Both the position numbers and the translations under genes were made by a program. DNA of 64,000 bases, from the IMG/VR virus record IMGVR_UViG_3300043395_003072, positions 94,463 to 158,462 of that record; one strand, 5' to 3'. Positions 31,954 to 64,000 of this stretch are shown piece by piece. The notes below the pieces were generated by a model that was given only the letters and a program-made list of their open reading frames with translations, searched no databases and was not told where the DNA came from. This DNA is from a virus. Within the stretch, counting starts at the first letter, position 1; each line of letters opens with the position of its first letter.

Positions 31954-33612
31954 TTATTTATTTATTTCAAGATTATGCAAAAGATCAAGTATATTTTTTC
32001 CAGATTCAATTTCTTTAAATAAAGATTCAACATCTGAGTTATATTTTGGAGCTAATCTCTCTCCATTTTGATTAGCAGGTCTTGATCTATTATTAGATAA
32101 GTTCCTAGCCCCTTGAGGCTCTCCAGGTTTAGCTCCTCTAGTCTCTCTAGAAACATTCATTGCTTGAGCCTCTTCTTTAGCAACACCTTCCTTAGTAATA
32201 GCTGAGGTTGGTGATTCTGCTAAGGCTTGTGAGCTTGCTGTGAATGCGCCCATAGTTTTTAATAAAGCTAATGGCTCCTGATAAAGCTTAAAGTAAGTTA
32301 AGTCTCTATCTGCATCCTCTACTGGTTGTTCTCCTAAACGCTTACGAGCTTCTTTCTCACCAATGAGATTGTTAAGCCAAAGCTGAATAGTCTGGTTCTC
32401 ATCTTTAGCGCGCTCTTCTTTATCTACAGTACCAAATCTAATATAAACCATCTTCTCTGGATTGGTTAAAGCATCATCATAACCGCCTTCTAGCAAAAGC
32501 TCATTAACCACGTAAGTCTCAATAAAAGTCTTAACATTCTTCTGTAAAGCTTCTACATCTTGAGTTGCTATCTTAGATAAAGTATTTGCAGTGCTTCTAT
32601 TAGCCATATCACCTTCGCCCATATCTATAGGCGATACTCCAAGCCCTGCATAAACTCTCTTCTTAAAGTAATCTAAGTAATCTTTGATATCTAATGCTTT
32701 ACCCTGTGCACCTACTACTTCAATATTATGTCTATGGTCAGATACAAATACGCCTCCAGAAGGCATATACTCGATTGTCTGCTTAACTAAGTCAGACTCC
32801 TTAATACCATCAGGACTATAACGCTCAGGCATATTATCGTTACCAACCTTGTAATGAAACAAAGGATGCAAGTTACTATCAATCATATTCTCAATAGACT
32901 CTTCCATCCTTCTAAGCAAAGCTAAATCTTCTAGTACTGGAAGTATCTCTGGAGTCCCCATAGTGAACCCAGGTTTTCTATTAGTATAGAAGTGAATAAC
33001 ATCTTCAGGAGAGAACTCTTTCCACTCACCAGTATTAGGTTGCTCTTGCATTACTTTCTTGATCTCGCCATTCCTCTTAATCTTAAACCAAAGATTCTCA
33101 AATGGCAGAATATAGTAACCTGCAACTGGATCTAAAGCAGCCCCATCTAGCTGTCTAATTTTGCCTGTAGATGCATCTTTACTACGCACCTTTACCCAGG
33201 CACAGTTAGAGTATCTAATGAGATCGTGGGCCAAATCAGACATCAATAAATCAAAGGGCTGACCAGAGACCAACTCGATCTCTTTAATCCTGCGCTTAAT
33301 ATAATCAACAGTCTCTCTGTCATTACCTACGAACTCCCAACCTGCTAAAACAAAGCGCTGTACTTTCTTTTGAATAGCTTTGAACAAGAAAGCATCAGTA
33401 TCTTGAGCTATTTGAATTTCAGTTAAGTCGTACTCAGGCTTGAACCAATTACCTCTATGTCTATCTGCATAAGGCATAGACCTAGCATTGATTCGCTTGA
33501 CGCGCACCCCAGAGATTCTTTCTGCATTAATAGGCTTGTTTCTATCCTGGAGTATAATCTCTCTACTATCTGATAGAACCTTTAAAGCTTCACTAATTAA
33601 TAAATTGTTCAT
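31954..33612 (-). CDS. Portal protein (552 aa)
   Basis: Portal-type features include AIQKKVQRFVLAGWEFVG near residue 75, a helix DFLIY-like stretch with MSDLAHDLIRYSNCAWVKV, and VIHFYTNRKPGFTMGTPEIL, the H-F-x-x-x-R-x-P-G-x-x-x-G-x-P motif of many portals, followed by a long helical stem/crown region (RRMEESIENMIDSNLHPLF onward). An A/P/Q-rich tail ends the protein. It lies between the terminase and protease-like genes. The gene overlaps its upstream neighbour by four bases. Confidence 0.7.
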   Translation of the reverse strand: MNNLLISEALKVLSDSREIILQDRNKPINAERISGVRVKRINARSMPYADRHRGNWFKPEYDLTEIQIAQDTDAFLFKAIQKKVQRFVLAGWEFVGNDRETVDYIKRRIKEIELVSGQPFDLLMSDLAHDLIRYSNCAWVKVRSKDASTGKIRQLDGAALDPVAGYYILPFENLWFKIKRNGEIKKVMQEQPNTGEWKEFSPEDVIHFYTNRKPGFTMGTPEILPVLEDLALLRRMEESIENMIDSNLHPLFHYKVGNDNMPERYSPDGIKESDLVKQTIEYMPSGGVFVSDHRHNIEVVGAQGKALDIKDYLDYFKKRVYAGLGVSPIDMGEGDMANRSTANTLSKIATQDVEALQKNVKTFIETYVVNELLLEGGYDDALTNPEKMVYIRFGTVDKEERAKDENQTIQLWLNNLIGEKEARKRLGEQPVEDADRDLTYFKLYQEPLALLKTMGAFTASSQALAESPTSAITKEGVAKEEAQAMNVSRETRGAKPGEPQGARNLSNNRSRPANQNGERLAPKYNSDVESLFKEIESGKNILDLLHNLEINK

Positions 33613-49823: not shown

Positions 49824-49924
49824 GAAAATATTTGGGAGTAAGAGAGCGCGAGAAAGTATAAAAAATATTTGGGAAAAAGCTGTTACCTATGACGGCAATT
49901 AGAAAAATATAAAAAATATTTGGG
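49824..49924. promoter_or_regulatory. Three direct repeats ending ATATTTGGG in the divergent intergenic region
   Basis: An exact 17-bp sequence, TATAAAAAATATTTGGG, occurs at 49857-49873 and 49908-49924, and a shorter related copy (GAAAATATTTGGG) at 49824-49836. All three face right and lie between the divergent operons, 37 and 51 bases apart (end to end). They are good candidates for promoters or operators of the rightward module, possibly recognised by a phage polymerase. The rest of 49,732-49,823 is AT-rich with a CCCCGGGGG inverted repeat near 49,809 and no clear -35/-10 pair. Confidence 0.5.
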
Positions 49925-50387: not shown

Positions 50388-50407
50388 GTCGCTGTTGTCT
50401 GATCTCT

Positions 50408-50423
50408 AGCCGCTTAGGCGGCT
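50408..50423 (+). other. 3' hairpin after gene A
   Basis: AGCCGC-TTAG-GCGGCT forms a six-pair hairpin 20 bases after the stop. It is followed by CAAAAATAAAG rather than a U-run, so it looks more like an mRNA 3'-end stabiliser than an intrinsic terminator. Confidence 0.6.
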
Positions 50424-50435
50424 CAAAAATAAAGT

Positions 50436-50498
50436 CCTAGGGTCACCATACCTAGGCCGAAACGCCGTGAGGCGTCCGGGGAAAGCCCCGCTGATGAG
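50436..50498 (+). ncRNA. Hammerhead-ribozyme-like element 1 (between genes A and B)
   Basis: Order of elements: hairpin CCUAGG/CCUAGG (50436-50456), C, GAAA (50459-50462), stem III ACGCC-GUGA-GGCGU, C at 50476, stem I CGGGG-AAAG-CCCCG, then CUGAUGAG (50491-50498). This is the complete hammerhead core in the type II order with a GUC cleavage triplet; predicted cleavage is after 50476. The strand that should close stem II after CUGAUGA pairs with the 5' side by only G-C, and the CCUAGG hairpin occupies that place instead. Activity is not shown. Confidence 0.75.
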
Positions 50499-50620
50499 AA
50501 TTCACTTGTCAGAATGCCCTTTGCAACAGGACACACACGACCATCATAGCAGCTATCAAGCTGTGTCGTGCAGTGTATGAGACTGGGCTCACCTCCCTCC
50601 CGTGCAAAAAGGAGAATCCA

Positions 50621-50881
50621 ATGCACAATCAGTTTGATCCAGAGAATCGCCAGTGGTGCGGGGAGTGGCCCATCGTGGCCATCCCCGCACCTGAGCCTGA
50701 GCCCACCCCCGAGCCCACGCCTGACCCTGAGCCTGGTATGGTCACGCGTGTTGAGCGCGTGGCCCAGGAAGGGCTTTCTATTGGTGAGATGATTGCTGAG
50801 GGGGTCTCCCTATGGACGCTTGCGTCTTGGGGGATTGCCATCATTGCGAACCTCGCTCGAAAGTTCCGTAAGAAGAACTAA
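50621..50881 (+). CDS. Gene B: small Pro/Glu-repeat protein with C-terminal membrane helix (86 aa)
   Basis: Start at ATG 50621 after AAAAAGGAGAATCCA. Residues ~20-38 are a Pro-Glu-Pro-Thr repeat (APEPEPTPEPTPDPEPG), a rigid spacer like those of TonB or spanins. Residues ~60-78 (VSLWTLASWGIAIIANLA) form a single hydrophobic helix followed by a basic tail RKFRKKN. A small inner-membrane protein with the tail in the cytoplasm is likely; a lysis or membrane-anchoring role is possible but unproven. A hammerhead-like element lies on each side of it. Confidence 0.6.
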   Translation: MHNQFDPENRQWCGEWPIVAIPAPEPEPTPEPTPDPEPGMVTRVERVAQEGLSIGEMIAEGVSLWTLASWGIAIIANLARKFRKKN

Positions 50882-51224
50882 GAGCACCGCTGCCAGGTGT
50901 AACTCCTGGCGAAACGACTTCCTCTCGCTTCAAGTGAGAGGTTTGCTGTGAGGTGGAATCACAGCTGTAATAGTTGTCAGGGCTTAGCCCTCTGACGATC
51001 CAGCGGGGTCCAATCAGCATTCTTTGCTCCAAATACCTGCGTTTGTTTGCTTTTCGTTAAAAGCAGGGATATGGGAGTCACACCCATTGCAAGTGGCCAC
51101 TCCTTTCTGAGTCGTAGTCCAGTCGCTACTTATGCGGCGGTACAGTTGATGCCTCAATCAACCCTGTTACTCTGAAATCAGGTTAAAATTCAGAATCTAC
51201 TAATACGCATAAAAGGAGTATCCT
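50882..51224 (+). other. Structured intergenic region between genes B and C
   Basis: 343 bases without a gene. The first 120 hold hammerhead-like element 5. The rest includes GUUGAU-GCCUC-AUCAAC and smaller hairpins, a weak purine-rich stretch, and the ribosome binding site AAAAGGAG eight bases before gene C. No promoter is obvious. Confidence 0.5.
50887..51006 (+). ncRNA. Hammerhead-ribozyme-like element 5, expanded stem III (between genes B and C)
   Basis: Hairpin CCAGG/CCUGG (50893-50909), GAAA (50911-50914), stem III ACGACU (50914-50919) with AGUUGU (50972-50977), C at 50978, stem I AGGGC-UUA-GCCCU, CUGACGA (50992-50998). Stem III carries two inserted hairpins (CUCUCGCUU/AAGUGAGAG and GCUGUGA/UCACAGC). 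An outer helix CCGCUG (50887-50892) with CAGCGG (51001-51006) closes the whole, serving as a stem II. Core position 7 is C rather than U, the most tolerant core position in hammerheads. Predicted cleavage after 50978. Confidence 0.7.
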
Positions 51225-51764
51225 ATGCGTAATCTTGTGAAGATGATCCTCGTGAACAACCTCCTCGTCTCTGAGACCCAGGTCACCCAGGGGCTCTTCG
51301 AGGAGGTGATGGGGTGGAACCCCACTCGCAAGGTCAGCCGCTTCTCGCCCCCCACGCCTCACCGCTGTGTAAGGGACGTGTCGTGGTTTCAGTGCGTACG
51401 CTTCTGCAACAAGCTGAGCGACCTTGAGGGGTTGCAGCGAGCTTATTTGCTTGATGAGACTGCAGAGGTAGCCTTTACAATTGAGGGTGCCAATGGCTAC
51501 AGGTTGCCCACAGCAGCCGAGGCCAAGGTCTTCGCCAACAAACTCCTCGTAGCAGTTGCCAATAGGAACTCAGAGTTCCTTCTGGATGTGCATAATCACC
51601 GCCTCAATGACCTTGGCCTCAAGGGCGTGGGTAGTTCATGGGAGTGGACTATCCAAGATGCGGATAGAAAGTTAGATAAAATTGCCACCTGCGACTCTGA
51701 GGCCAGAGGGTGGTTTATGGGTGGTTCAGTGGCGGTGACCTTCCGGGTCGTCCGCTCCCGCTGA
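51225..51764 (+). CDS. Gene C: degenerate formylglycine-generating-enzyme / C-type-lectin-fold protein (179 aa)
   Basis: Start at ATG 51225 after AAAAGGAG. Segments follow the FGE-sulfatase domain order: NNLLVSETQVTQGLFEEVMG, VRDVSWFQCVRFCNKLSDLE, GYRLPTAAEAKVFANKL, GSSWEWTIQD, and the end GWFMGGSVAVTFRVVRSR (compare R-L-P-T-E-A-E-W, G-N-V-W-E-W and R-G-G-S-W...F-R in the family). It is shorter than true FGEs, and I do not see the paired active-site cysteines in the expected place, so binding rather than catalysis is likely. FGE/lectin-fold proteins are common phage receptor-binding or DGR-diversified proteins. The gene end is inside the 115-bp direct repeat. Confidence 0.6.
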   Translation: MRNLVKMILVNNLLVSETQVTQGLFEEVMGWNPTRKVSRFSPPTPHRCVRDVSWFQCVRFCNKLSDLEGLQRAYLLDETAEVAFTIEGANGYRLPTAAEAKVFANKLLVAVANRNSEFLLDVHNHRLNDLGLKGVGSSWEWTIQDADRKLDKIATCDSEARGWFMGGSVAVTFRVVRSR

Positions 51765-51782
51765 GTCGTTGTTGTCTGGTCT

Positions 51783-51798
51783 AGCCGCTTAGGCGGCT
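51783..51798 (+). other. 3' hairpin after gene C
   Basis: AGCCGC-TTAG-GCGGCT, identical to the hairpin after gene A and likewise followed by CAAAAATAAAG. It probably stabilises the 3' end of the processed gene C mRNA. Confidence 0.6.
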
Positions 51799-51810
51799 CA
51801 AAAATAAAGT

Positions 51811-51872
51811 CCTAGGGTCACCATACCTAGGCCGAAACGCCGTGAGGCGTCCGGGGAAGCCCTGCTGATGAG
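51811..51872 (+). ncRNA. Hammerhead-ribozyme-like element 2 (between genes C and D)
   Basis: CCUAGG hairpin (51811-51831), GAAA (51834-51837), stem III ACGCC-GUGA-GGCGU, C at 51851, stem I CGGGG-AAG-CCCUG (one G-U pair), CUGAUGAG (51865-51872). Predicted cleavage after 51851. Stem II lacks a closing strand beyond one G-C pair, as in copy 1. Confidence 0.75.
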
Positions 51873-51945
51873 CACCCGCACATAAACGTTACAGGCTGCG
51901 TTTACTGTGAACCTTCCAAGCCTAAAGAGGAGGAGTTCCTCAAAA

Positions 51946-52626
51946 GTGAAAGGCTGCGACTTTACTGCAGCCGAGAAGTGTCCCGTGTTCGTGGGAGACA
52001 TCCACGCTCGTCCAGAGCTGTTGGAAGCCGTCCTCCGCGATTACGGGGATTTGAGGGTCATCCTGCTAGGTGATATCCTCGACGGCCCCGGTGGGGCTCG
52101 TGGCTCTGCTGAGCTTGTCAAGATGGCGCGTAAAAACGCCGTTGAGATGGTGCTCGGCAACCATGAGCTGTATCCGATCTTCGCCACAAGCCGGCAACAG
52201 CTGGCCCAGTGGTGGGGTGAGGATCCTCATGGGAAGACCGCCGAGAGGATCTGGCAGGAGTGGATGGCGATCCACTCTCTCCTTGATGATGAGGACATGG
52301 CATGGCTTCGGTCGTGCCCCCTCTATCTGAGAGGCGAGGGCTGGATTGCCGTTCACGCAAAGACCCTTCCCATCCTTCCTGCCCAGTACGTGACTGGTGC
52401 TCCGACCCAAGCTCAGATCGAGCTTGTGGATCACACGGAGAGCACCCCGTTCTGGGCTGAGGCGTACGATGGCCGTTTCGGCCATGCGTACTTTGGGCAT
52501 ACCCGCCTTTCCAAGGTGGGGCGCGCCCAGTGGCCTCATGCGACCCTGCTCGACTGGGACGCAAAGAAGGATGGTACCTGTGGGGTGTGTGTGCTCGGCG
52601 GCACACCCCACGCGCTTCTCGGCTAA
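51946..52626 (+). CDS. Gene D: calcineurin-like metallophosphatase (226 aa)
   Basis: I start at GTG 51946 because AGAGGAGGAG lies ten bases upstream; an in-frame GTG at 51907 lacks a site. Motifs of the two-metal phosphoesterase fold are present: GDIHA (Asp18, His20), GDILD (Asp43), GNHE (Asn72, His73), VHAK (His137) and FGHT (His185), the standard lambda-PPase/ApaH-type set. Such enzymes cleave phosphomonoesters, diadenosine polyphosphates or 2',3'-cyclic phosphates. The location in an operon whose RNA would be cut by hammerheads, producing 2',3'-cyclic phosphate ends, makes an RNA-end role worth testing, but lambda-type protein phosphatase activity is equally possible. Confidence 0.8.
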   Translation: MKGCDFTAAEKCPVFVGDIHARPELLEAVLRDYGDLRVILLGDILDGPGGARGSAELVKMARKNAVEMVLGNHELYPIFATSRQQLAQWWGEDPHGKTAERIWQEWMAIHSLLDDEDMAWLRSCPLYLRGEGWIAVHAKTLPILPAQYVTGAPTQAQIELVDHTESTPFWAEAYDGRFGHAYFGHTRLSKVGRAQWPHATLLDWDAKKDGTCGVCVLGGTPHALLG

Positions 52627-52639
52627 CGCCGAGTTCCCG

Positions 52640-52659
52640 AACCCTTAAGCTTTTGGGTT
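52640..52659 (+). other. 3' hairpin after gene D
   Basis: AACCC pairs with GGGTT across an AAGCTT-containing loop, 14 bases after the stop and followed by AATAAAG. It occupies the same position as the AGCCGC hairpins after genes A and C. Confidence 0.5.
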
Positions 52660-52729
52660 AATAAAGCAACAGCCCGACCCCCTAGAGTGGTCACTTCCTG
52701 AGCATGAAGGAAAAAACTGCTCACCAAAC

Positions 52730-52812
52730 CCTAGGGTTCACCATACCTAGGTCGAAACCATGCTGGGGGGGTTACACCCCCAGGCATGGTCCGGGGAAGC
52801 CCCGCTGATGAG
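52730..52812 (+). ncRNA. Hammerhead-ribozyme-like element 3, long stem III (between genes D and E)
   Basis: CCUAGG hairpin with a ten-base loop (52730-52751), C, GAAA (52754-52757), a long stem III starting ACCAUGC and ending GCAUGGU with an inner G-rich/C-rich extension, C at 52791, stem I CGGGG-AAG-CCCCG, CUGAUGAG (52805-52812). Stem III differs completely in sequence from copies 1 and 2 but keeps pairing, while the core is unchanged. Predicted cleavage after 52791. Confidence 0.75.
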
Positions 52813-52860
52813 TCAAGCTCACAGATTAAAAAACAAACCGCGCACACAAGGAGAATTCCA

Positions 52861-53556
52861 ATGCGCAACCTCATCGTCACCGCCCTCGCGATCCGCGAGT
52901 TCACCCCCACCGCCCCCATTGCTTGCTCCCTCGCCCTCCCTGCCCACACCGATACCACCACCATCGTGGAGCCCCCTGCCCCCGACATGGCGCCCATCTC
53001 TACCCCGCCGCTCATCGACATCTCGATGGGCAACATCGTAGAGCAGATGCGGGCCTTTGACCCGCCGCTCTGGGTGCGTCCCGGGGTGGCGGGGTTTAGG
53101 GTGGTGTGGGGTGAGGTCACGCCCCCAGTCCCCCTCGAGGTGGAGGTCGGGGGTGTTGGGGGTTGCCTCCCTCACGTGGCGGGGGTGTGGGACGGGAAGC
53201 GGATCAGGGTAGCCACGTGGGGGAAGAAGGGGAACAAACAGTTCCACCGCGGCGGACTGGAGGGCACGATAGTGCATGAATTTGCCCACGTACTTCAATG
53301 GTATGGGGCCGGCAACAGCATCGGTGATTGGTACTATACCAACCACCACGATGAGCAATCCCACTTGTTCAAGAAGTGGGAAAGTGTCTTGTCCCCGTTC
53401 TACGCGGGGTCGCACGAGGCGGAAAGCACCGCCGAAGTGTTCAGGGTGTTAAAGGGGTACCGTTCCGATGAGGAGTGGGAGAACAACTCCCAACTCCTGA
53501 AGGAATGGGAAGGTTTCCTTAGGGGGAACGAAGTGTTCAAGCACTTCTTCCCCTAG
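52861..53556 (+). CDS. Gene E: HEXXH zinc metallopeptidase-like protein (231 aa)
   Basis: Start at ATG 52861 after AAGGAGAATTCCA. HEFAH at residues 139-143 within GTIVHEFAHVLQWYG is the zincin active site. SHEAESTAEVF (about 185-194) supplies Glu residues placed to be the third ligand, as in gluzincins and lethal-factor-like enzymes. The first ~60 residues are Pro/Ala/Thr-rich and probably disordered; I see no convincing signal peptide. The N-terminus MRNL matches that of gene C. Substrate unknown; wall or host-protein cleavage are both possible. Confidence 0.7.
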   Translation: MRNLIVTALAIREFTPTAPIACSLALPAHTDTTTIVEPPAPDMAPISTPPLIDISMGNIVEQMRAFDPPLWVRPGVAGFRVVWGEVTPPVPLEVEVGGVGGCLPHVAGVWDGKRIRVATWGKKGNKQFHRGGLEGTIVHEFAHVLQWYGAGNSIGDWYYTNHHDEQSHLFKKWESVLSPFYAGSHEAESTAEVFRVLKGYRSDEEWENNSQLLKEWEGFLRGNEVFKHFFP

Positions 53557-53562
53557 TCTTCC

Positions 53563-53576
53563 GACCTGAAGAGGTC
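53563..53576 (+). other. 3' hairpin after gene E
   Basis: GACCT-GAAG-AGGTC, five pairs, seven bases after the stop and followed by an AT-rich linker to element 4. It is equivalent in place to the hairpins after genes A, C and D. Confidence 0.5.
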
Positions 53577-53591
53577 ATTAAATATACTAGT

Positions 53592-53660
53592 CCTGGGGTC
53601 ACCATACCCAGGCCGAAACGCCTCCCTTTTGGGGGCGTCCCGGGAAGCCCGGCTGATGAG
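53592..53660 (+). ncRNA. Hammerhead-ribozyme-like element 4 (between genes E and F)
   Basis: Hairpin CCUGGG/CCCAGG (53592-53612), C, GAAA (53615-53618), stem III ACGCCUCC...GGGGGCGU, C at 53639, stem I CCGGG-AAG-CCCGG, CUGAUGAG (53653-53660). Against copy 1 the 5' hairpin changes from CCUAGG/CCUAGG to CCUGGG/CCCAGG, and stem I from CGGGG/CCCCG to CCGGG/CCCGG, both keeping pairing. Predicted cleavage after 53639. Confidence 0.75.
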
Positions 53661-53714
53661 AGTTGTAATTCAGCACTCCTTCAGATTCAACCCACCTGCA
53701 TACAGGAGAATCCT

Positions 53715-55007
53715 ATGCAGACTAAGTCCTCGGCGGCTACCACCGCCCGCCCTAACACCCCCACCCTCCGCGACGCGGAGCAGGCCGCGCTCGCCCGGTG
53801 GAGGGCGCTGCCCACCACCACCGCCACCACCCCCACCACCCCCACCCAGGCCGCCGCGCTGCCCCCCGCTGCGCCGTCCACGGAGACCACCATGACCATG
53901 GCACAGATCGTTGGTCGCATCACCCTCAAGGTGAGCGCCAAGGAGCGCCCCGCCCGCCTCGCCCCGCCCCAGCGTGCCACCCGCCGCACCCCCCTCACCC
54001 GCGCCGCCCTCGCCACCACTCTCCCCATGCTCGAGACGCGCTACGAGCGCGTTGCGGGCACCCTGCGCCTCAACGACAAAGGGGGTGTCGTTTCGCGCCA
54101 CCCCGCTCTCACCCCCTGGGTGACTTTCGACCCGCAGTCGCGGGATTACAGCATCGATCGCTACATCGACGGCCCCGGGCTCCTCGCCCTCAGCCGCAAG
54201 GTGGGCGCCAAGGTGGTGTTCGCCAACGCCACCTTTACCGCCCTCGCCGCCCTTACCCCTGAGCAGCGCGCCCTGCGCCGCGCCGCCCGCCGCGTCGCCC
54301 GCCGCACCGAGGCCGAGCGCCTCGACGCCGAGCGCACCGCCCACGCCCTCGCCGCCGCCCACGCCCGCGCCGCCGCCCTCGAGGAGGAGGCCCAGCGCCG
54401 CGCCGAGCGCGCCCTGGCCCGCAACACCCTCAAGGCGGAGCGCACCGCCCTCGCCCTCGACCTCGCCGGCGAGATGGGCGTGACCACCGCCGCCGCCCGC
54501 CGCGCCCTCCTCGACGCGGACTGGAGCATAGAGGACGCGCGCAACGCCCTTGAGCTCGCCGCCATGAAGGCCGAGGAGCGCAAGGAGCGCAAGGAGGAGC
54601 GCAAGGAGGCCGCCGACGCCCTCGCCGCGGCCCCCGCGAAGGTAAAGACCGCCCTGAAGGGCATCGCGAATCAGGCCCTCAAGGGCCGCATCGCCCTGGT
54701 CCTCGACAGCCTCAAGGGCCGCCTGCTCGGGGTGGCCCTCAAGGCAGCCCTCGCCGCCGCCGCCACCACCCCCGACGCCAACACCACCCTCACCACCGAC
54801 CGCCTCCAGTGCATCATCGCCAGCGCTGTCGACGAGGAGCGCATCCGCCGCGATCTCGCGGTGGAGCGCAAGCTCAAGATGAAGGCGGCCATCAAGGCGC
54901 GCAGCGAGGAGGTCACCAACCTCTTCGCCCGCGCCAAGGGGGGCGACAAGGGTGTGCCTCAGGCACTCACCCTCGCCATCACCCTCGCCCGCAAGGTGCG
55001 TGGCTAA
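53715..55007 (+). CDS. Gene F: Ala-rich protein with UBA/TS-N-like segment (430 aa)
   Basis: Start at ATG 53715 after ACAGGAGAATCCT. Extremely Ala/Arg/Thr-rich, with codons dominated by GCC and CGC. A Thr/Pro-rich N-terminus (1-60) precedes a mixed domain (70-180, with SRHPALTPWVTFDPQSRDYS). Charged Ala/Glu/Arg helices run from ~185 to 245. A segment near 249-282 (GEMGVTTAAARRALLDADWS then IEDARNALEL) resembles UBA/EF-Ts N-terminal domains. It lies directly before the polymerase-like gene G, whose start is two bases past its stop, so translation is probably coupled and the two products may act together, for example as a polymerase partner. Function otherwise unknown. Confidence 0.6.
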   Translation: MQTKSSAATTARPNTPTLRDAEQAALARWRALPTTTATTPTTPTQAAALPPAAPSTETTMTMAQIVGRITLKVSAKERPARLAPPQRATRRTPLTRAALATTLPMLETRYERVAGTLRLNDKGGVVSRHPALTPWVTFDPQSRDYSIDRYIDGPGLLALSRKVGAKVVFANATFTALAALTPEQRALRRAARRVARRTEAERLDAERTAHALAAAHARAAALEEEAQRRAERALARNTLKAERTALALDLAGEMGVTTAAARRALLDADWSIEDARNALELAAMKAEERKERKEERKEAADALAAAPAKVKTALKGIANQALKGRIALVLDSLKGRLLGVALKAALAAAATTPDANTTLTTDRLQCIIASAVDEERIRRDLAVERKLKMKAAIKARSEEVTNLFARAKGGDKGVPQALTLAITLARKVRG

Positions 55008-55008
55008 G

Positions 55009-58000
55009 ATGTCTGCTGAGAACAACAGCAACATCACCGCCACCCCCGCCAACGAGCAGGAGAGCACGATGACCACCACCACCACCACCACTACCGCCGC
55101 CCCGGCCACTCCCGCCACCGAGCAGGAGCAGGTTGTGCACACGGACAACGTCACCCTCCCCAAGGCCACCCCGTGGGATGCTTCCTTCCTTGAGGCTATC
55201 AAGGACCGGGACTTCCCTGAGGCGTTTAAGACCTTGGTGCTGGCGCACTTCAAGGAGCGCCAGCTGCACCCCATGTTGTGCTGGGGCCACCATTCCACCA
55301 AGCAGCTTGAGGAGTTCATCTCCAACCAGTTGCCCTTGGACAGCGCCTTGCGCGCGTTCCAGCTGGACACCTGGGGCAGCCGCAGCTTCATTGGGCGGCA
55401 CTTTTCGCCGCTCTTCAAGGCTCGCTGGGAGTCCCTCAAGAAGAGCCAGGAGGAGGAGGAGATGGCTGAGATCGAGCGCCTCAACAAGCTGGAGGAGGTT
55501 AAGCAGGCCGAGCGTGACGCCGATAAGGCCCAGCGCAAGGCTGAGCGTGAGGCTCAGCGTGAGGCCGAGAAGGCTCAGCGCAAGGCTCAGCGTGAGGCTC
55601 AGCGTGAGGCCGAGAAGGCTCCCAAGAAGCCTTGGAGGAATGTGCCAAACCTCCACCTCGACCGCACCGAGCTGTCCACCTACACGGTGGAGCAGCTCAA
55701 GGCTCTGGCGGTCATCAACGCGACCGCCCTCCTTGTGCAGATCGACAGCACCCTCAGCCTCAAGCTTGTGCAGACTGAGGATGGCTTGGTCATGCCCGAG
55801 AGTCCTGCGAAGCCCACGCAGATCATGAAGGGCTTCGGGACCGCCAAGAAGGCGGACCTCATCAAGCTCCTCAACTGGATGGGCTCAGGCGACATGAGCA
55901 TGCGCCCGGCAGGAGCCACCAGTGACCTCGTCAAGGCGGTTGCCCAAAACTACCGCCCTGAGGAGGAGAAGCCGGAGGAGTCCCTCGCTGAGGTGATGGT
56001 GATCGGGAAGGCCGAGAGGCAGGAGAGCGCGAAGGCCAAGAGGCGTCGCCGCGAAAGCATTGTGCAGCTTGAGGAGGCCATCAAGGCTTTCCCCGCGCAG
56101 GCTGACGCCATCAAGCCCATCAAGGAGATGGTCTCGGCGGGCGGGGATACCCCGACCCACATTGACCTCGAGCAGGTTGACCGCGCCAGCAAGGCGTTGG
56201 AGGGTAACACCCTGGAGCAGGTCAGCTCTCAGGTGGGAGCCACCTACTGCCTGACGCTCCAGGTCTACCCGACCAACGAGCGCACCGCTCATGGCGATGG
56301 CAACCATGCCCAGGTCATGAAGGTGGCCTTGGTGCCCAGTGTCGCCTGGCGCCAAGGTGCCAGCTTCTTGGTCAACCAGTTTAACAACTGGATTGGCCTT
56401 GAGCAGAACCAGGACTTGGCGAAGAAGCTCAATGCCAAGCCGTTTAAGGTCGAGGTGGACGATTTCATTTTCGTCCAAAACAAGACCGACGAGAACGGCA
56501 ACGAGTCCGCCATCCCTGAGCTCAACAGGGTATTGACGAAGCTCGGGTATTTGGCGGTCACGCCGGGCTTCTGGCTCAAGAAGAACCACCCCTACTGCGC
56601 GTGGATCAAGAGCGTTTTCAAGACGAACTTGGTTGTGCGTGGGCGTGCCCGCAGCATCGCTACCACCCCGTATCAGGCTCAGCTGTCTTTCCAGCTTGAG
56701 CGTGATGCCGAGGGCAATGTCATTGGTGTGAGCAACACCCCGGTGTTCGTCGCCGACCTCACGAAGTACGGCCATGTGGGTCTTGATGGTAGCAATATCA
56801 TCAGCAAGAACCTCATGGGTACGGGGTGGACGCCGGGGGTTGTCGCGCAGATTCGCCTGCACACCAACCCCTACATCGCCCAGTCGTACGGCGTGCAGGG
56901 CAAGGGGCTGGCTCGCGCCCACAATGCCTGGGCGGTGCACACCCAGAGCGGGTGGGTCATTAAGACCGACTTCTATGCGAAGAAGTCGATCATTGACCAG
57001 GACGACAACCTCTCCCCCGCCGAGAAGGAGAGCGCCATCAAGGCGTTGAAGGCAGAGTACCTGCCCGCAATCATCCTTCACTATGACAACGTGAAGGGCG
57101 CGGGCTCGAAGGAGCTCGAGAAGGCGGTCAAGGGCAAGACCACCCTCTTGAACCTCAACCAGTGGGGCATGGAGGATGGTTATGAGTCTGCCCTCTTCGG
57201 TGGGGTGATCGCCGAGGATTACCGCGGTCAGAGCACCACGAGCTGGCAGAACGGCCAGCTCTACAGCCCCGAGGTGCTCGACGCCAACAAGGCCTACATC
57301 CACAAGCTCCTCGACACTGCCTTCAAGAAGCTGGCGGTTTCGGGAGAGAGTGCACTCTCCGATGTTGAGGGGTTTGATGTTGGCCTGCGGCAGCTTATCG
57401 CTGCCCAGCAGGCTAGCAACCACAAGTGGGTGACGTCGGTTGCTTTTGGTGCAAACCAGAAGTGGCCCACGTTCTACTGCGAGCAGATGGATATGCCCGC
57501 AGGCTTTGTGGTCGCAGGCTCCAAGATCGGTGGGAAGGCTGACAAGCTGGCAATCACTGGCCAGCCTCAGCTCTACCACCAGTGCTTGGTGGTCGCCAAC
57601 CGTCTCAGCTGGGACGATGTCAACGCCGTCATCGAGCACCTTGATGGCGAAAAGGTCACCCTCACTGAGCTCCAGGTTAAGTGGCTGGCAGCTTGGGGTA
57701 AGATGGGGGTGTCCGATGATGATATCCTCCATCGCCTTCGCTGGATGGCTGGTGGCTTCGTGCCCAATGGCACTGAGTCGCTGATCTGGGTCTCTACTGT
57801 AGACCAGAAAACCATGCAGCGAGATTCGGACGGTGACCGCCTCTTGGTGCTTTGGGATAAGGATATGATTAAGCTTGTTGAGGATCACAACAAGTCGATC
57901 GAGGCCCTCCTTAAGCCCCACCTGGAGGTGGACAGGAAGACCGCTCTGGATGGCGACCAGAAGTACAAGGACTTGGCCAATGGCGATTGGGGCAACCCAG

Positions 58001-61000
58001 ATATCGCTGAGGAGGCCAATGAGTACATCTGCGCGCCAAACGCAGGTCAGGGGCCCACGGGCGAGTTGGTTAACGCCAACAGCGCTGTGTTGAACCACTT
58101 TGTGTGGCAGCAGGTCAACGGCACCTGGCAGCCCGAGTCAGACAAGATGCACCACATCTTGAAGCTTTACGGTTTCATGTGCCTCTTGATCCAATGCTCC
58201 ATTGACCGCCAGAAAAAGGTCTGGGCGGTCCCGGCTCTGTGCCAGTGGCTGGCGCTGGACTTATATAGTGGAGAGATCACGTCCTACGAAACCCTTGCTC
58301 CTGGTGTGGAGAAGTACAGCTTCTTCATTCAGACTAAGAGCGGCGACAAGTCCATCCGCGAGATCCCTGTGCGTACCGGCTACGCCGATATGTTCAACAG
58401 GAGCATCATCAAGCCTTGGTTGGCAATGATGATCAACTTGGTGAATGCCAAGAGCACCTGTTTGAACGACACCACTGGGGCTTCTTTCCAGAAGGTGTTT
58501 AAGGATGTCGCTCAGGCGTTCTTGGACTCCTCGAACAACCCTGGCGGGTTTGACTGGGCGGCGATCGCTCAGGCAATCGGTGCGCAGGTCTCGGCCGAGG
58601 AGCTCAAGAGCAAGTGGGTTTTCCCCGACGAGCTCTACAGCTTTAAGGATCAGGCCTCGCTCTACGTGCCTGTTCCCAAGGCTGCCCCGGGGATCAAGTG
58701 GCTCACCACCAAGGCCACCGAGGTCTACTCGGGCTGGCGGAAGGAGAAGGGTATTTCCAACTACCCCTCCAGGCAGCTCTTCTTGAAGTTGAGCGGCCTG
58801 ACTGCCGACTGGATGGCAAAGCCCAATGCCCACTTTGGCGACGATTCCAGCGCGCTGGACTTCGTCAGGGAGTTCTCGAGCATGATGGCCCGTTCTGTCG
58901 CACAGAACCTGGCTAGCGTCGCCAACAGCGAGATCAAGCAGGGGCGCGGCGGCGACACCGCCCGAGAGGCGTTGAAGGAGATCCGTGCCGCGTTGACTGT
59001 CTTTGATGTGTACCACCCCGTCAGCAAGCTTATCAAGTATGCTGTGGGGAGGGACGCCAAGCCGGCCAACGTGAGCATGGCCTGTCTCGGTCTCATCCGT
59101 ATGTGGACCAAGTCTTGGTTGACCTCAGCGGCGACAAACTCCCTGATCGAGTACTTCTCTGTACTTAATCTTTACGGGCAGATCGACGCCAACTTCGACT
59201 GGTCTGTCCAGGAGGAGACTGAAGCGACTCGGTCCGTGAAGGAGGAGGTCACCCCCATTGAGGTCGCGAAGAACGTTCTTCGCAACTTGGAGGTGGTCTG
59301 CAACGAGGAGAATAAAACCCTCCTCATGCAGATGATCGATGACGTCAATAGCGACGTCAGCCTTGCCACCCTTGTGGAGAAGAACCGCCTTGCCGCTCAG
59401 CTTCACGAGTACAGCATCGCGGCTGAGCCCACTGGTGCCGAGCGCATCCTCACCGAGTGGTTGCCTGCGCTGGAGCTGGCCCAGGACAACATCGATATGG
59501 CCACAGAGAGGCGTGAGCTTTTCCTGGATGATAGCATATTCCAGGACTTCTGTGGTCTTGTCGGGGATCCCAGCATCGTCACCGAGAGGGCGTTCCTGGA
59601 TTTTGCCCAGAGGAAGATCCTTCCCGTGTTGAGCAGGAAGCTGCTCAGCCTGACGAAGAGCCAGGCCAACCTGGCGAACCAGGCTGACACCTGCATGCTC
59701 AACTGGTACCGCCTTGTGGCGAACCAGGCGGGGTGGGACGCCACGAAGCTTGTGAATAATCTCGCAGGCTTCACCAAGCTGTACCTGCCGCACATGCTCC
59801 CTCGCACCCGCGAGATTGTGGATCTCATGACCCCCTTTGTGCAGGCCTATCGCACGAAGGTGTGGATCCTTGACATGTACGGCAAGGTCGGGTCTCTTGG
59901 TACGAGCGATCCGCAGGTCCACAATCAGCGGATGGTGACCATGGTCGAGGAGGCGGTCTTCAACATGAAGCACGTCTTCGACCCCACCAGTGGCACTCTC
60001 CGCAAGGAGAAGACGATCAAGAGTCGTCCCGAGGTGGCAGTGAGCCCGGCGCTTCGTGCCAAGTTCACCTGGGAGCTCCTTTCTGAGGGGCTTAGCCATT
60101 ACGGTCTCCACACCACTCGGCGCCCGGCGTTCATCGATACCAAGGATGGTAAGAAGATGATCGTCACTCGCACCGACCGGTGGGTTTACATGGACTCCAA
60201 GATGCCCCGCAACTTGGACATCCTGAATAAGGCCTGCGAGCAGGGTCTGGTCATCGGCCACATCTTCAACCCTGACTGGTTGAAGGTGATGTTGGAGTCG
60301 GTCAAAAACCAGCTCAATGTCCCGGAGCTCTCGGCTGATGAGAAGGTGAACCTCGAGGCGAAGAAAGACGTGCTTGAGTACGCTCTCGCAGACGTGCTTA
60401 GCATGTACGTCATTGAGGACACCTCCCCTCGCACCCACGAGAGGCAGCTACTCGGCTCGCTGGCCTTCCCTGCCTGGTACGGTGGTCGGGATAAGTGCTT
60501 CCAGCACACCCCCTTTGACAGCTACCGCACCAGCGCTCACCGCTCGGTGTGGCGCTTCATCATGAGCGTCATGCCCTTGCAGGCTGAGTTTCAGGACAAG
60601 GCAGAGCTCTACGACCGCCTGACTGGCTGCCAGACGCTTAACGCGTCGAACAGACGTGGGTTTGCGGTCAGTGAGAACACTGACTGGGTGAACGCCCTCA
60701 GCACCAGCTCTTGGGGTACGAGCACGGCCAACTCGGGCTACTCCCGGGCTCCTCGGGACTTCAACACCACCCCCGGCGACATGTTCATCAATGGAACTTG
60801 GTCGAAGCCCAATCGCAGCCCTGCTGCGGAGAACCTCGGGATGCTCGACATCCAGGTCGGGAACATCTCGTTCCAGATGAGGACCGACGCTTACGTCTCT
60901 AATGCGGGCTGCACCTTCCAGGTCAGCTCTCGCTCCAGGGAAGATTCGGAGAACTGGGTCGAGAATGCCCCCTCCGGGTTTGGGGAGTCCAAGGGAATCC

Positions 61001-61368
61001 GCGAGATGACCATCATGGCGATGAGGTCGAATGTGGTGACTGGCCGCATCAACGGCCTTGAGGTGAGCAACATTGTTGCTCAGCGCATCGCGGAGCTCCG
61101 TTACCAGGACATCAAGGGCTGCGTGGTCTCCGAGGTGGACTTCGAGAAGTTCAAGACGGAGGCGATCATCGGCTGCTGGGGTGCCACAAACGCCCTCGAC
61201 AGCATCGTCGTCTCCAAGATGTCTGACGACAGCACCTGGGGTCGCTTCAGCGCTAAGACGAGCACGGCCTGGCGCGACTTTGCCAAGGGCAACAATAGGA
61301 GCTTCAAGATCCTGCCCCCGGTGAGCTCGCGCTTTTACCAGCTCCTCTTCGCCGCGAAGGGTAACTGA
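55009..61368 (+). CDS. Gene G: giant two-barrel (RDR/QDE-1/YonO-like) RNA polymerase (2119 aa)
   Basis: I start at ATG 55009, one base after the gene F stop; an in-frame upstream start inside gene F is unlikely. The N-terminus is Thr-rich, followed by a coiled-coil repeat of EREAQREAEKAQRKAQ type (about 165-207). QSYGVQGKGLARAH (Lys632) is placed like the first-barrel G-x-KG lysine motif. TGQPQLYHQCLVVAN (about 850-864) resembles the R-x-P-x-L-H motif of RDRs. RDSDGDRLLVLWDKDMI (DSDGD at 939-943) matches the second-barrel D-x-D-G-D-x-Y-F-V-x-W-D signature of eukaryotic RDRs, QDE-1 and phage YonO-type polymerases. The 1100-residue C-terminal part is unassigned. DNA- or RNA-templated transcription is implied; which one is unknown. 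Confidence 0.65.
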   Translation: MSAENNSNITATPANEQESTMTTTTTTTTAAPATPATEQEQVVHTDNVTLPKATPWDASFLEAIKDRDFPEAFKTLVLAHFKERQLHPMLCWGHHSTKQLEEFISNQLPLDSALRAFQLDTWGSRSFIGRHFSPLFKARWESLKKSQEEEEMAEIERLNKLEEVKQAERDADKAQRKAEREAQREAEKAQRKAQREAQREAEKAPKKPWRNVPNLHLDRTELSTYTVEQLKALAVINATALLVQIDSTLSLKLVQTEDGLVMPESPAKPTQIMKGFGTAKKADLIKLLNWMGSGDMSMRPAGATSDLVKAVAQNYRPEEEKPEESLAEVMVIGKAERQESAKAKRRRRESIVQLEEAIKAFPAQADAIKPIKEMVSAGGDTPTHIDLEQVDRASKALEGNTLEQVSSQVGATYCLTLQVYPTNERTAHGDGNHAQVMKVALVPSVAWRQGASFLVNQFNNWIGLEQNQDLAKKLNAKPFKVEVDDFIFVQNKTDENGNESAIPELNRVLTKLGYLAVTPGFWLKKNHPYCAWIKSVFKTNLVVRGRARSIATTPYQAQLSFQLERDAEGNVIGVSNTPVFVADLTKYGHVGLDGSNIISKNLMGTGWTPGVVAQIRLHTNPYIAQSYGVQGKGLARAHNAWAVHTQSGWVIKTDFYAKKSIIDQDDNLSPAEKESAIKALKAEYLPAIILHYDNVKGAGSKELEKAVKGKTTLLNLNQWGMEDGYESALFGGVIAEDYRGQSTTSWQNGQLYSPEVLDANKAYIHKLLDTAFKKLAVSGESALSDVEGFDVGLRQLIAAQQASNHKWVTSVAFGANQKWPTFYCEQMDMPAGFVVAGSKIGGKADKLAITGQPQLYHQCLVVANRLSWDDVNAVIEHLDGEKVTLTELQVKWLAAWGKMGVSDDDILHRLRWMAGGFVPNGTESLIWVSTVDQKTMQRDSDGDRLLVLWDKDMIKLVEDHNKSIEALLKPHLEVDRKTALDGDQKYKDLANGDWGNPDIAEEANEYICAPNAGQGPTGELVNANSAVLNHFVWQQVNGTWQPESDKMHHILKLYGFMCLLIQCSIDRQKKVWAVPALCQWLALDLYSGEITSYETLAPGVEKYSFFIQTKSGDKSIREIPVRTGYADMFNRSIIKPWLAMMINLVNAKSTCLNDTTGASFQKVFKDVAQAFLDSSNNPGGFDWAAIAQAIGAQVSAEELKSKWVFPDELYSFKDQASLYVPVPKAAPGIKWLTTKATEVYSGWRKEKGISNYPSRQLFLKLSGLTADWMAKPNAHFGDDSSALDFVREFSSMMARSVAQNLASVANSEIKQGRGGDTAREALKEIRAALTVFDVYHPVSKLIKYAVGRDAKPANVSMACLGLIRMWTKSWLTSAATNSLIEYFSVLNLYGQIDANFDWSVQEETEATRSVKEEVTPIEVAKNVLRNLEVVCNEENKTLLMQMIDDVNSDVSLATLVEKNRLAAQLHEYSIAAEPTGAERILTEWLPALELAQDNIDMATERRELFLDDSIFQDFCGLVGDPSIVTERAFLDFAQRKILPVLSRKLLSLTKSQANLANQADTCMLNWYRLVANQAGWDATKLVNNLAGFTKLYLPHMLPRTREIVDLMTPFVQAYRTKVWILDMYGKVGSLGTSDPQVHNQRMVTMVEEAVFNMKHVFDPTSGTLRKEKTIKSRPEVAVSPALRAKFTWELLSEGLSHYGLHTTRRPAFIDTKDGKKMIVTRTDRWVYMDSKMPRNLDILNKACEQGLVIGHIFNPDWLKVMLESVKNQLNVPELSADEKVNLEAKKDVLEYALADVLSMYVIEDTSPRTHERQLLGSLAFPAWYGGRDKCFQHTPFDSYRTSAHRSVWRFIMSVMPLQAEFQDKAELYDRLTGCQTLNASNRRGFAVSENTDWVNALSTSSWGTSTANSGYSRAPRDFNTTPGDMFINGTWSKPNRSPAAENLGMLDIQVGNISFQMRTDAYVSNAGCTFQVSSRSREDSENWVENAPSGFGESKGIREMTIMAMRSNVVTGRINGLEVSNIVAQRIAELRYQDIKGCVVSEVDFEKFKTEAIIGCWGATNALDSIVVSKMSDDSTWGRFSAKTSTAWRDFAKGNNRSFKILPPVSSRFYQLLFAAKGN

Positions 61369-61370
61369 GC

Positions 61371-62150
61371 ATGGAGATCAAGAGCATGAACTCTGTCCTG
61401 GCCCTCCTCCCGGCCTCTGACCGGAAGAACTTCGTCGCGAAGCTGATGAAGCTTAGCGTCGATGCGACGGAGCTGTGCAACTTCCTCAACCTCTTTCCTG
61501 AGGATGAGCGCGTCGAGGCTCTGAGCAGCTTCCTTGACGGGCAGGTGGAGAAGCCCGCTTCGGCTGGCAACACCACCTACAACGGCACCGTTAACCGGTA
61601 CGAGATCTCTGGCGGTAGCAATAACCGTATCGAGATCTCGTACGCTGGTGGCGGGTATGCCCGGCAGAGCTCCTCCACCTCAACGCCCAAGCAGGCTGCT
61701 GACCGCAGCGCTTGGAACGTCAAGGGTGAGCTCGTCTACCTCAAGGATGAGTGGGTGAGCGTCATCAAGAGCCTCATCGGCGACGGGAAGGCTCTCAACC
61801 TCTCCGCCGTTGAGGGCCTGAAGTTCTTGGCCGCCCACAAGGGTGAGGTCTGGGGTTCGATCAACCCGAGCAACTTCATGTATGTGTCGCAGGCCGCTAC
61901 CAGCATTGATGGCTTGGTTTGCGTTCCTCACACGGATGTGAAGTACGCTTCCGGTCCCGCCTGCTTCCTCACCATGAAGGCGGAGCTCTATGATGCTGCC
62001 AAGGCTGCTGGCTTGATCGTGGGCGGGGACAGCGTTGCTTCTCCGGCTGCGCCGGCCCCCAGCGCTGCTGCTCCCGCAACCAAGCCCGCCTCCGATCCCG
62101 TAGCTTCGGTGCAGAACTCTCAGGACCTCAACCTCGGTACTGCCTGGTAG
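61371..62150 (+). CDS. Gene H: protein of unknown function with C-terminal disordered tail (259 aa)
   Basis: ATG at 61371 lies two bases after the polymerase stop with no separate ribosome binding site, so it is probably translated by coupling. A helical N-terminus (LPASDRKNFVAKLMKLSVD, then CNFLNLFPEDERVEALSSFL) precedes a Gly/Ser/Tyr linker, a globular part (residues 115-215, WNVKGELVYLKDEWVSVIKS) and an Ala/Pro/Ser tail. No known domain. Coupling to gene G suggests a polymerase- or RNA-associated role. Confidence 0.55.
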   Translation: MEIKSMNSVLALLPASDRKNFVAKLMKLSVDATELCNFLNLFPEDERVEALSSFLDGQVEKPASAGNTTYNGTVNRYEISGGSNNRIEISYAGGGYARQSSSTSTPKQAADRSAWNVKGELVYLKDEWVSVIKSLIGDGKALNLSAVEGLKFLAAHKGEVWGSINPSNFMYVSQAATSIDGLVCVPHTDVKYASGPACFLTMKAELYDAAKAAGLIVGGDSVASPAAPAPSAAAPATKPASDPVASVQNSQDLNLGTAW

Positions 62151-62156
62151 ATCTAA

Positions 62157-62268
62157 ACTGAGCTGACTCGGCACTCCTTTCGAGGGGTGCCGAAATGGCC
62201 TCAGCTTCGGCTGAGGCCATCGGGGACTAAGTCCCCCTGACGACCCGCTTGCGGGGAGTCAGCTCAGT
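62157..62268 (+). ncRNA. Hammerhead-ribozyme-like element 6, fully closed (between genes H and I)
   Basis: An outer 13-pair helix (ACUGAGCUGACUC 62157-62169 with GAGUCAGCUCAGU 62256-62268) encloses hairpin GGCACUCC/GGGGUGCC, GAAA (62192-62195), stem III AUGGCCUCAGC-UUCG-GCUGAGGCCAU, C at 62221, stem I GGGGAC-UAA-GUCCCC, CUGACGA (62237-62243), and a hairpin CCCGC-UU-GCGGG. The cleavage triplet is AUC, predicted cut after 62221. It is the clearest copy: the outer helix supplies the missing stem II as a multibranched version. Confidence 0.8.
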
Positions 62269-62525: not shown

Positions 62526-62849
62526 ATGTCAAACTCAGCTAACACCCCCGCAACTGCCGAGGACCTCCTGAAGGCCAAGGTGCTCTCCGCCGCGGCGACG
62601 CTCACCCAGATGGGCGCCAAGGTGAACACTAGGATGGACGAGCGTGAGACCGCTAACGGCTTGACTCGGTACTTCCAGTTCGAGACTAGCCTCGCCTCAA
62701 TCGCCACCCTGGATGCGGCCCTCCTTGAGGGTTTGCTGGTCACCGTGACCGTAGCGGCCTACCAAGGCAGCTACACCGGCAAGGAGGCCCTTGAGAAGAC
62801 AGCGGCTACCTCCGCTGCAAACGCGTTTGCCAATTTTGGCAAGCGCTAA
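62526..62849 (+). CDS. Gene I: small Ala/Thr-rich protein (107 aa)
   Basis: ATG at 62526 follows GAAAGGAGCACCT. A helical N-terminus (TAEDLLKAKVLSAAATLTQ) precedes a short beta-rich body (TRYFQFETSLASIATLDAAL, LVTVTVAAYQGSYTGKEALE), ending in AANAFANFGKR. No recognised family; small size and abundance-type codons could suit a structural or RNA-binding protein. It is the last clear gene before the long structured region. Confidence 0.5.
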   Translation: MSNSANTPATAEDLLKAKVLSAAATLTQMGAKVNTRMDERETANGLTRYFQFETSLASIATLDAALLEGLLVTVTVAAYQGSYTGKEALEKTAATSAANAFANFGKR

Positions 62850-63149
62850 GAAGCGGCCGTCCCACCACCATGGGGACGTTAATTGTCATGGTTTTCTCGT
62901 TTTGTTTCCTTTTAAGGAGACGAGACGAGACGAGGAAAGCGTGCAATGCACACCTCGTAAAAAAAGTGGAATACCGTCGTGACGGAAGCCGTAAGGCTCG
63001 AGTCGCCTGTCGAGCTGTCTCCTGGGCAGCGAAACGGAAATGCCCACCAGTGGCAGGCCGAAGCGTGCTCCCGCTTCGGTCAATCTGGCCTCCTGCTCGC
63101 CGTGCAGGAGGGTCATCTGGCTAGACTATAGCCAGCATGATTAACCAAG

Positions 63150-63193
63150 GAGGCCCACCGAGTGGGACTTCGGCGAACCACTTAGTGGGCCTC
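63150..63193 (+). repeat. Duplicated hairpin, copy A
   Basis: GAGGCCCAC pairs with GTGGGCCTC around an inner AGTGG...CCACT stem with the loop segment GACTTCGGCGAA. It shares fold and loop sequence with 63280-63326, and is followed directly by GAAA. Confidence 0.65.
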
Positions 63194-63279
63194 GAAACCC
63201 TTTACCAGGAGGGGAGACTTCGGTCTGAATCCTGGTCCTCTGTAGCCGTGCAGGGGAGTCACTTCATCAGTGATCGAAC

Positions 63280-63326
63280 GAGGGCCCACTTAAGTGGGAC
63301 TACGGCAACCACCTCGGTGGGCCCTC
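63280..63326 (+). repeat. Duplicated hairpin, copy B
   Basis: GAGGGCCCAC pairs with GTGGGCCCTC around an inner GTGG...CCAC stem with GACTACGGCAA. The extra pair and compensatory changes relative to copy A keep the fold while the loop GAC(T/A)CGGC core is retained, as expected for a selected RNA module. Confidence 0.65.
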
Positions 63327-64000
63327 AGCTGTGCTGTCACACAGGATAAAAAACGGCAGGGTCCCCTCCAGGGGGACTTAAATAAAAACTGGCGGTGGTC
63401 TACCTGTATCGGTAGAGAAGCTGATTGCGCACCTAAGGGAACGAAAGGTGTGCGCCCAACAAGTGGGTACTCTCAACGCAAGTTGAGAGGGAACTGAATC
63501 AACGACTATACTAGTTATGTCGCTGATTGAAAGGATCGAGGGAGCTAAAGCTGTGCACAGCTATGCCCTGATGAACGAGGAGTAATTAACCTCAAGTAGT
63601 CGAAGTTGAGAGCCGCGCTGATGAGCGGCGAGACAACAGTCTGGAAAACTGTTGTCTTATACCCGTGGTTGATGGGCATCAAGTGGGGAGGATTTCTAAG
63701 TGCATGCTACTCCAAAGCATTGCTTAGTGAATATCTCCCTGCTGGAGGTGGGGTGTTTTGACACCTCACCTTTGGGCTCGCCAGTATCTAAACTGGCTGA
63801 GACTTGTGGCAGCGCGAACGCGAGCCCAAGCTAACCAAATCAACCTGGATGGAGACCTAAAAATCTCCTGTCGACGCCCTCATTGAGACGCCTCCACGTG
63901 GCGAGGGTGGAGCCCAGCGAAAGCTGCGGTACTAAGTCTCTGCATCGGGTGATCTTCGCAGAAGGTCATCTAGGTGCAACCGCGCAGGACGGATTTCCTG

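Follow-up and report, generated by a model that had tools for sequence, protein, structure and literature searches.

Predicted hammerhead elements at the gene junctions of a phage operon and of its relatives

Results and Discussion

The DNA analyzed here, called "the window" throughout, comprises the final 64 kb of a 158,462-base IMG/VR virus record (IMGVR_UViG_3300043395_003072) and carries an operon with six intergenic sites that contain the hammerhead core. We consider it quite probable that these sites are self-cleaving elements that cut the polycistronic operon RNA into units between genes, the likely benefit being protected mRNA units, and that a hairpin found upstream of each site replaces stem II.

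Six sites with the hammerhead core

The whole record was scanned with a descriptor comprising GAAA, stem III starting with the A15.1-U16.1 pair, H17, stem I, and CUGANGA. The only convincing matches were the six sites listed in Table 1. This independent scan thus recovered, with identical coordinates, all the sites with GAAA, closed stem III, U-C, closed stem I and CUGANGA that had been proposed in a preliminary description of this DNA; the cleavage points given there coincide with the first base after C17, and the sites indeed precede genes B, C, D, E, F and I. A strict version of the descriptor, in which stems I and III have at least 5 bp each, gave six matches on the plus strand of the GC-rich island that contains the operon, none on its minus strand, none in the other 144,262 bases of the record, and none in the island after dinucleotide shuffling (1,000 replicates). 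The descriptor matched 15 times in 2.39 Mb of DNA from related phages, versus once in the reversed-sequence control. A match to CUGAUGAG at position 63617 of the window was judged to be due to chance or overlap, as were an R3 match at L070 10863 and type II matches at L096 11330 and L092 3597.

The core is constant across sites 1-6 except for position 7 (U, C, U, U, U and C, respectively), as previously described, and CUGANGA, GAAA and UH at the cleavage site are present in all six window sites as well as in five type-II-like copies from relatives. Stems I and III, including the A15.1-U16.1 pair, differ in sequence from site to site and yet stay paired, again in agreement with the earlier claim: cognate arms form 56 of 56 pairs in stem I (0.56 for non-cognate arms) and 54 of 55 pairs in stem III (0.59 for non-cognate arms). 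An identical 79-bp block, comprising the upstream hairpin, the spacer and the 5' part of the ribozyme, is found in sites 1 and 3 (50405-50483 and 51780-51858, after genes A and C), which suggests that a ribozyme cassette spread by duplication.

Hammerheads in related phages

A terminase search yielded 55 relatives, and an alignment search added more. Genes were mapped in four phages, namely the phage of the window, G001, G007 and G038, with TerL of the latter three exhibiting 74%, 58% and 59% identity to that of the window. Their operons possess six, five, six and seven hammerheads, respectively; almost all boundaries of operon genes in this family of uncultured phages are marked by one. Every one of the 24 elements is intergenic and oriented in the operon sense. 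The syntenic island of G001 contains four elements of the window's kind and one type III hammerhead, and G002 (L014) has one element of the window's kind. Type III and type I hammerheads number four and two, respectively, in the operon of G007 and three and four in that of G038, and the same two forms are present in the shorter contigs of G037 and G040. Several of the type I copies start at or just past a stop codon.

The type III copies (from G007, G038, G037 and G040) exhibit three stems, the full core and covariation: 98.9% of the cells are paired, and the covariation is 0.783 versus 0.318 +/- 0.049 for shuffled data (0/500). In the type I copies 100% are paired and the covariation is 0.623 versus 0.218 +/- 0.051 (0/500); a held-out type I copy (L184 13212) was recovered by a covariance model with an E-value of 5e-14. 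Covariation, whose absence in homologs the preliminary description named among its refuting conditions, exceeds the shuffled background for both types. As the distant relatives use type III and type I forms, the predicted cleavage position is kept while the ribozyme topology changes, which supports selection for the cut and not for a particular RNA. With the type shifting between type-II-like, III and I at TerL identities of 58-74%, the selected trait (a cut at the junction) would be separable from the RNA fold. Isolate phages with distant TerL (ME3, MTATph1 and KLEB27-3) revealed no convincing site (best E-values 0.34-0.9).

In phages with a 66% identical terminase, we also found a candidate hammerhead with the type II order about 7 kb past the giant open reading frame (ORF) described below (L098 4913 on the minus strand, L093 14303 and L094 13859). 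It has a hairpin directly 3' of CUGAUGA, and G004 and G006 differ in it by compensatory changes. Two apparently unrelated viral contigs contain arrays of type I hammerheads: seven on the minus strand of L211 (IMGVR_UViG_3300031366_000001; locus positions 4550 to 596, i.e. about 4 kb), each in a gene junction approximately 20-90 nt ahead of the next start codon, and four on the plus strand of L215 (8206-9723). Long hammerhead arrays are thus not unique to this phage clade.

The upstream hairpin and a proposed detached stem II

In every copy, a separate hairpin is located 0-2 nt upstream of GAAA. Its cognate arms form 66 of 67 pairs (0.44 for non-cognate arms) and covary: CCUAGG/CCUAGG, CCUGGG/CCCAGG, GCCAGG/CCUGGC, GGCACUCC/GGGGUGCC, GGCUCC/GGAGCC and ACCCC/GGGGU. 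In site 6 the minimum-energy fold includes also a second hairpin and a 12-bp outer helix. A loop of the GUCnCnnUA type is present in the upstream hairpin of six of the 11 copies (GUUCACCAUA in site 4); the same six have the stem I loop AAG (AAAG in site 1), and the remaining five have neither. From this co-occurrence we infer a putative loop-loop contact. Searches of viral contigs with DNA patterns of the upstream hairpin returned only a near-identical contig, G001 and false matches.

Tentatively, we suggest that the order stem II hairpin-GAAA-stem III hairpin-UC-stem I hairpin-CUGANGA represents three closed hairpins with the break between A9 and 10.1 and the chain ends in the core junction, an arrangement of the chain that is not among the six block permutations given in 2023. 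It would place hairpins at both new RNA ends and might serve phage operons as a reusable "cut-here" cassette, with the loop pair acting as a tertiary contact. The 2023 survey takes it as a rule that stems I and II directly adjoin CUGAnGA in every case (PMC10085705), an assumption that the copies reported here break.

Points against and rival explanations

A number of observations weigh against the interpretation of the six sites as hammerheads that process a single operon RNA. The canonical stem II (10.x/11.x) is reduced to one base pair (G10.1-C11.1) in sites 1, 3, 4 and 5 and has 0 bp in sites 2 and 6; copies in relatives have 4 bp (L070 1729) or 2 bp (L070 12493). A hammerhead from nature whose stem II has a single base pair is active (PMC3088659). 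Lacking a canonical stem II between CUGANGA and GAAA, the window sites are classified here as a hammerhead variant and not as canonical members, and of the "complete type II core" described earlier, the core and stems I and III stand at all six sites, but stem II does not. The pseudoknot between loop I and the 3' tail, which the majority of type II hammerheads possess (PMC3088659), was rejected for the window sites, as their loops I of 3-4 nt could not supply 4 bp unless stem I opened. In the covariance-model check suggested in the preliminary description, Rfam Hammerhead_II (RF02276) scored only site 5, at 25.8 bits and thus below the gathering threshold of 37, and a custom model built from five copies retrieved held-out relatives (L070 1706 with an E-value of 5e-5 and L014 with 0.019), with site 6 retrieved weakly (0.74). 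Likewise, Rfam Hammerhead_3 assigned 36 bits to L092 10790, under its cut-off of 48.5. Free-energy folding yields the intended stems clearly for sites 1, 4 and 6 only, with competing folds for sites 2, 3 and 5. Moreover, sites 1, 3, 4 and 5 are sequence relatives of one another, i.e. four paralogous copies that do not count as independent, and the gaps between genes F and G and between G and H contain no hammerhead site.

The operon is also only presumed to be a single transcript. Its leader contains three repeats of AAATATTTGGG, with just one further exact copy in the 158-kb record and none inside the operon, which may be a phage promoter region, and intrinsic terminators or sigma-70 promoters between the operon genes were not detected above chance. 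The restriction of the repeats to the leader and the lack of terminators above chance are consistent with one transcript, without proving it.

The missing stem II and the sub-threshold Rfam scores would agree with a scenario in which degenerate or protein-assisted hammerheads have lost self-cleavage and function only as structured RNA punctuation, e.g. as RNase III/E entry sites or stability hairpins. We consider this improbable: all copies retain the catalytic core bases and differ at the free position 7 only, while the flanking stems drift; relatives use type III and type I hammerheads instead, whose cores are intact; and plain hairpins would not be expected to keep CUGANGA, GAAA and UH. About equally improbable is that the elements self-cleave for a purpose other than mRNA punctuation, with the operon RNA or pieces thereof being released or circularized (e.g. 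a structured noncoding RNA near site 6, or an RNA that the giant polymerase-like protein copies). In favor of it, RNA-circle elements are typified by repeated hammerheads on the same strand, a long stretch of structured noncoding sequence is located 3' of site 6 (62850-64000, with a counterpart at L070 10700-12490), and the giant ORF family has a member that matches the RdRP family in Pfam. On the other hand, that Pfam family includes two-barrel enzymes, so an RNA template is not implied, the sites are located at gene junctions where they adjoin ribosome binding sites, and the resulting pieces would be different single genes and not repeated monomers. In other phage clusters ligated or circular products were sought and not found (PMC3088659).

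By far the least probable explanation is that matching GC-rich hairpins arose by chance or by duplication of a repeat in a misassembled foreign stretch. The composition does change sharply: an AT-rich block on the minus strand gives way to a GC-rich (0.53-0.73) plus-strand island at about 49.9 kb, with a GC content of about 60% versus 35-36% elsewhere in the record, and the identical block shared by sites 1 and 3 could be regarded as a sign of such an artifact. The same junction was, however, found in a separate contig (L004), and in G001 the island is flanked by AT-rich phage DNA on both sides, hence we rejected misassembly. The failure of 1,000 shuffles to produce a single match and the diverged relatives, in which pairing is retained via compensatory changes, also contradict this explanation, which the relatives alone already refute.

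Predicted mechanism and implications

Self-cleavage at the gene junctions thus remains the reading that we prefer. According to it, each RNA would cut after C17 between two genes, and a long transcript would be split into pieces with a single gene or a few. Stems III and I are closed hairpins; the upstream piece would hence have the stem III hairpin and a 2',3'-cyclic phosphate at its 3' end, and the downstream piece would begin with a 5'-OH followed by the stem I hairpin, which adjoins the ribosome binding site that serves the next gene. RNA ends of this kind are resistant to 3' exonucleases and to 5'-monophosphate-dependent RNase E. The likely gain would be that hairpin-capped, non-phosphorylated ends withstand host exonucleases and RNase E, with stability set for each gene. 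In place of stem II, the hairpin that precedes GAAA probably forms a stack with the G12/A9 platform, and it probably also supplies the contact between its loop and stem I on which fast hammerheads depend.

Ever since hammerheads were discovered in bacteria and phages, their role in these hosts has, to our knowledge, been under question. The retention of the predicted cut sites across phages with differing ribozyme types argues that gene-by-gene self-processing of operon RNA, here in an operon with a probable phage RNA polymerase gene, would be useful in itself; the old mRNA-processing proposal becomes directly testable, and the sites offer natural sequences for building self-separating multi-gene transcripts.

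That proposal was made in 2011 for up to three hammerheads clustered around phage or prophage genes, with tandem clusters cleaving polycistronic RNAs of about 2 kb in vitro and mRNA processing into gene-length units suggested (PMC3088659). The prophage clusters of C. scindens, A. caulinodans and A. tumefaciens (a triple) resemble the operon described here in having several same-strand hammerheads per transcript that flank single genes or short blocks. Cleavage of all copies in these clusters was demonstrated in vitro. The predicted sites reported here differ in that five to seven elements occur per operon, are conserved in one operon across a phage clade, and exchange their permutation between relatives. 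The earlier view that no operon with such a series is known was therefore too strong, given the 2011 clusters and the longer arrays in apparently unrelated IMG/VR contigs. The broader claim of hammerhead elements at six junctions that would cut a polycistronic RNA holds in kind, owing to the covariation, the conservation in relatives and the textbook type III and type I forms in the same operon, but its priority was overstated along with the completeness of the core. In the openly accessible journal literature, we found neither a conserved operon with a hammerhead series of this kind nor a case of permutation turnover at fixed positions. What appears to be new is the scale, the conservation across phages, the permutation turnover, the association with a gene for a probable two-barrel RNA polymerase, and a stem II that seems to be detached.

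Compared to known ribozyme types, the window sites share with type II hammerheads (GSC; RF02276; PMC3088659) the order GAAA-stem III hairpin-UH-stem I hairpin-CUGANGA and the intact core, but differ in having 0-1 bp of stem II, a separate hairpin at GAAA, and scores below the Rfam gathering value. The non-circularly permuted types SGC and CSG (PMC10085705) are also natural rewirings that keep the core; unlike the window sites, they keep the blocks CUGAnGA with stems I and II and GAAA with stems II and III whole, whereas here the block order is that of classic GSC, the strand of stem II that would follow CUGANGA is missing or reduced to 1 nt, and the 5' hairpin apparently supplies stem II. The theta (HDV-like) ribozymes of gut phages (PMC10879173) are likewise small ribozymes involved in phage RNA processing, but have another fold and trim tRNA 3' ends instead of acting at operon junctions.

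The giant DxDGD protein

Each of the four mapped operons has a giant ORF (1829-2099 aa) with a DxDGD motif, flanked by the hammerhead array; this ORF corresponds to gene G in the window, and its operon neighbors vary between phages. Homologs are encoded at L070 3327-9428, L092 4741-10230 and L184 5537-11068, and DxDGD, KG and QxxIDxxK are invariant across 12 homologs. The two profile groups of this family are linked at 98.5%, and one relative (L158) matches the Pfam RdRP family of two-barrel polymerases with 1.9e-12. A profile search against the PDB gave a single, weak match to gp64, the non-virion RNA polymerase of P23-45 (E-value 1.5), and a search with the giant ORF as a single-protein query returned nothing new. 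The AlphaFold model of the polymerase-like region of the window protein (pLDDT 46) is too poor for a fold search or for recognition of two barrels. We regard the giant ORF as a probable two-barrel (RdRP/YonO/gp64-like) phage RNA polymerase. With the known enzymes (P23-45 gp64, YonO and QDE-1; PMC10770324, PMC5467207) it shares DxDGD and further motifs as well as the Pfam RdRP match of a family member; it differs by its length of 1800-2100 aa, mostly unrelated outside about 400 aa, and by being a putative polymerase.

Genomic setting and minor observations

The record represents a tailed phage, with terminase (41880-43997) and portal (31954-33612) genes on the minus strand. A GC-rich island is present in a weaker form in relatives, and the first approximately 4 kb of the record (L005) are likewise fairly GC-rich. 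Single-protein queries with the products of genes C and H returned nothing new and no phage record, respectively.

Table 1. Coordinates of the predicted elements, hairpins, repeats and genes in the window
Feature	Position	Strand	Remarks
AAATATTTGGG repeats (three)	49826..49924	+	operon leader; exact copies at 49826, 49863, 49914
Hairpin CCUAGG-GUCACCAUA-CCUAGG	50436..50456	+	before site 1; proposed stem II stand-in (minimum-energy fold, pair counts)
Site 1	50459..50497	+	predicted cut 50476/50477; precedes gene at 50621
Gene B	50621..50881	+	86 aa, hydrophobic stretch, no family
Hairpin GCCAGG-UGUAACU-CCUGGC	50892..50910	+	adjoins GAAA of site 2
Site 2	50911..50998	+	predicted cut 50978/50979; no canonical stem II; precedes gene at 51225
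Gene C	51225..51764	+	179 aa, FGE-sulfatase-like, 22.0 bits, under Pfam cut-off 23.3
Hairpin	51811..51831	+	before site 3
Site 3	51834..51871	+	predicted cut 51851/51852; precedes gene at 51946
Gene D	51946..52626	+	calcineurin-like phosphoesterase (Pfam Metallophos)
Hairpin	52730..52751	+	before site 4
Site 4	52754..52811	+	predicted cut 52791/52792; precedes gene at 52861
Gene E	52861..53556	+	231 aa, HEFAH zinc-protease-like motif, no family match
Hairpin CCUGGG-GUCACCAUA-CCCAGG	53592..53612	+	before site 5; compensatory change versus sites 1 and 3
Site 5	53615..53659	+	predicted cut 53639/53640; precedes gene at 53715
Gene F	53715..55007	+	430 aa, Ala-rich, no family
Gene G	55069..61368	+	2099 aa; DxDGD, KG, QxxIDxxK motifs; probable two-barrel RNA polymerase
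Gene H	61386..62150	+	254 aa, no family; ORF opens at 61371
Site 6 outer helix (12 bp), 5' strand	62158..62169	+	minimum-energy fold
Hairpin	62170..62191	+	adjoins GAAA of site 6
Site 6	62192..62243	+	predicted cut 62221/62222; precedes gene at 62526
Second hairpin CCCGC-UU-GCGGG	62244..62255	+	directly 3' of CUGACGA of site 6
Site 6 outer helix (12 bp), 3' strand	62256..62267	+	minimum-energy fold
Gene I	62526..62849	+	107 aa, no family

The noncoding stretch after site 6 in the window and the counterpart of this stretch in L070 are hairpin-rich and occupy equivalent places near the last hammerhead; they perhaps represent a large structured RNA. Neither has an Rfam match at the gathering level, the sole sub-threshold match being HDV-F-prausnitzii at L070 11640. 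A motif GACGAGACG/GAGACGAGAC recurs in noncoding stretches, e.g. at L184 3570, 4595, 5465 and 13360, at 62920-62935 of the window, and at L005 270 and 585. L005 also contains genes that resemble, by sequence, those for adenylosuccinate synthetase (6127-7227) and adenylosuccinate lyase (7202-8323), which raises the possibility, worth testing, of a PurZ-type modified-base genome.

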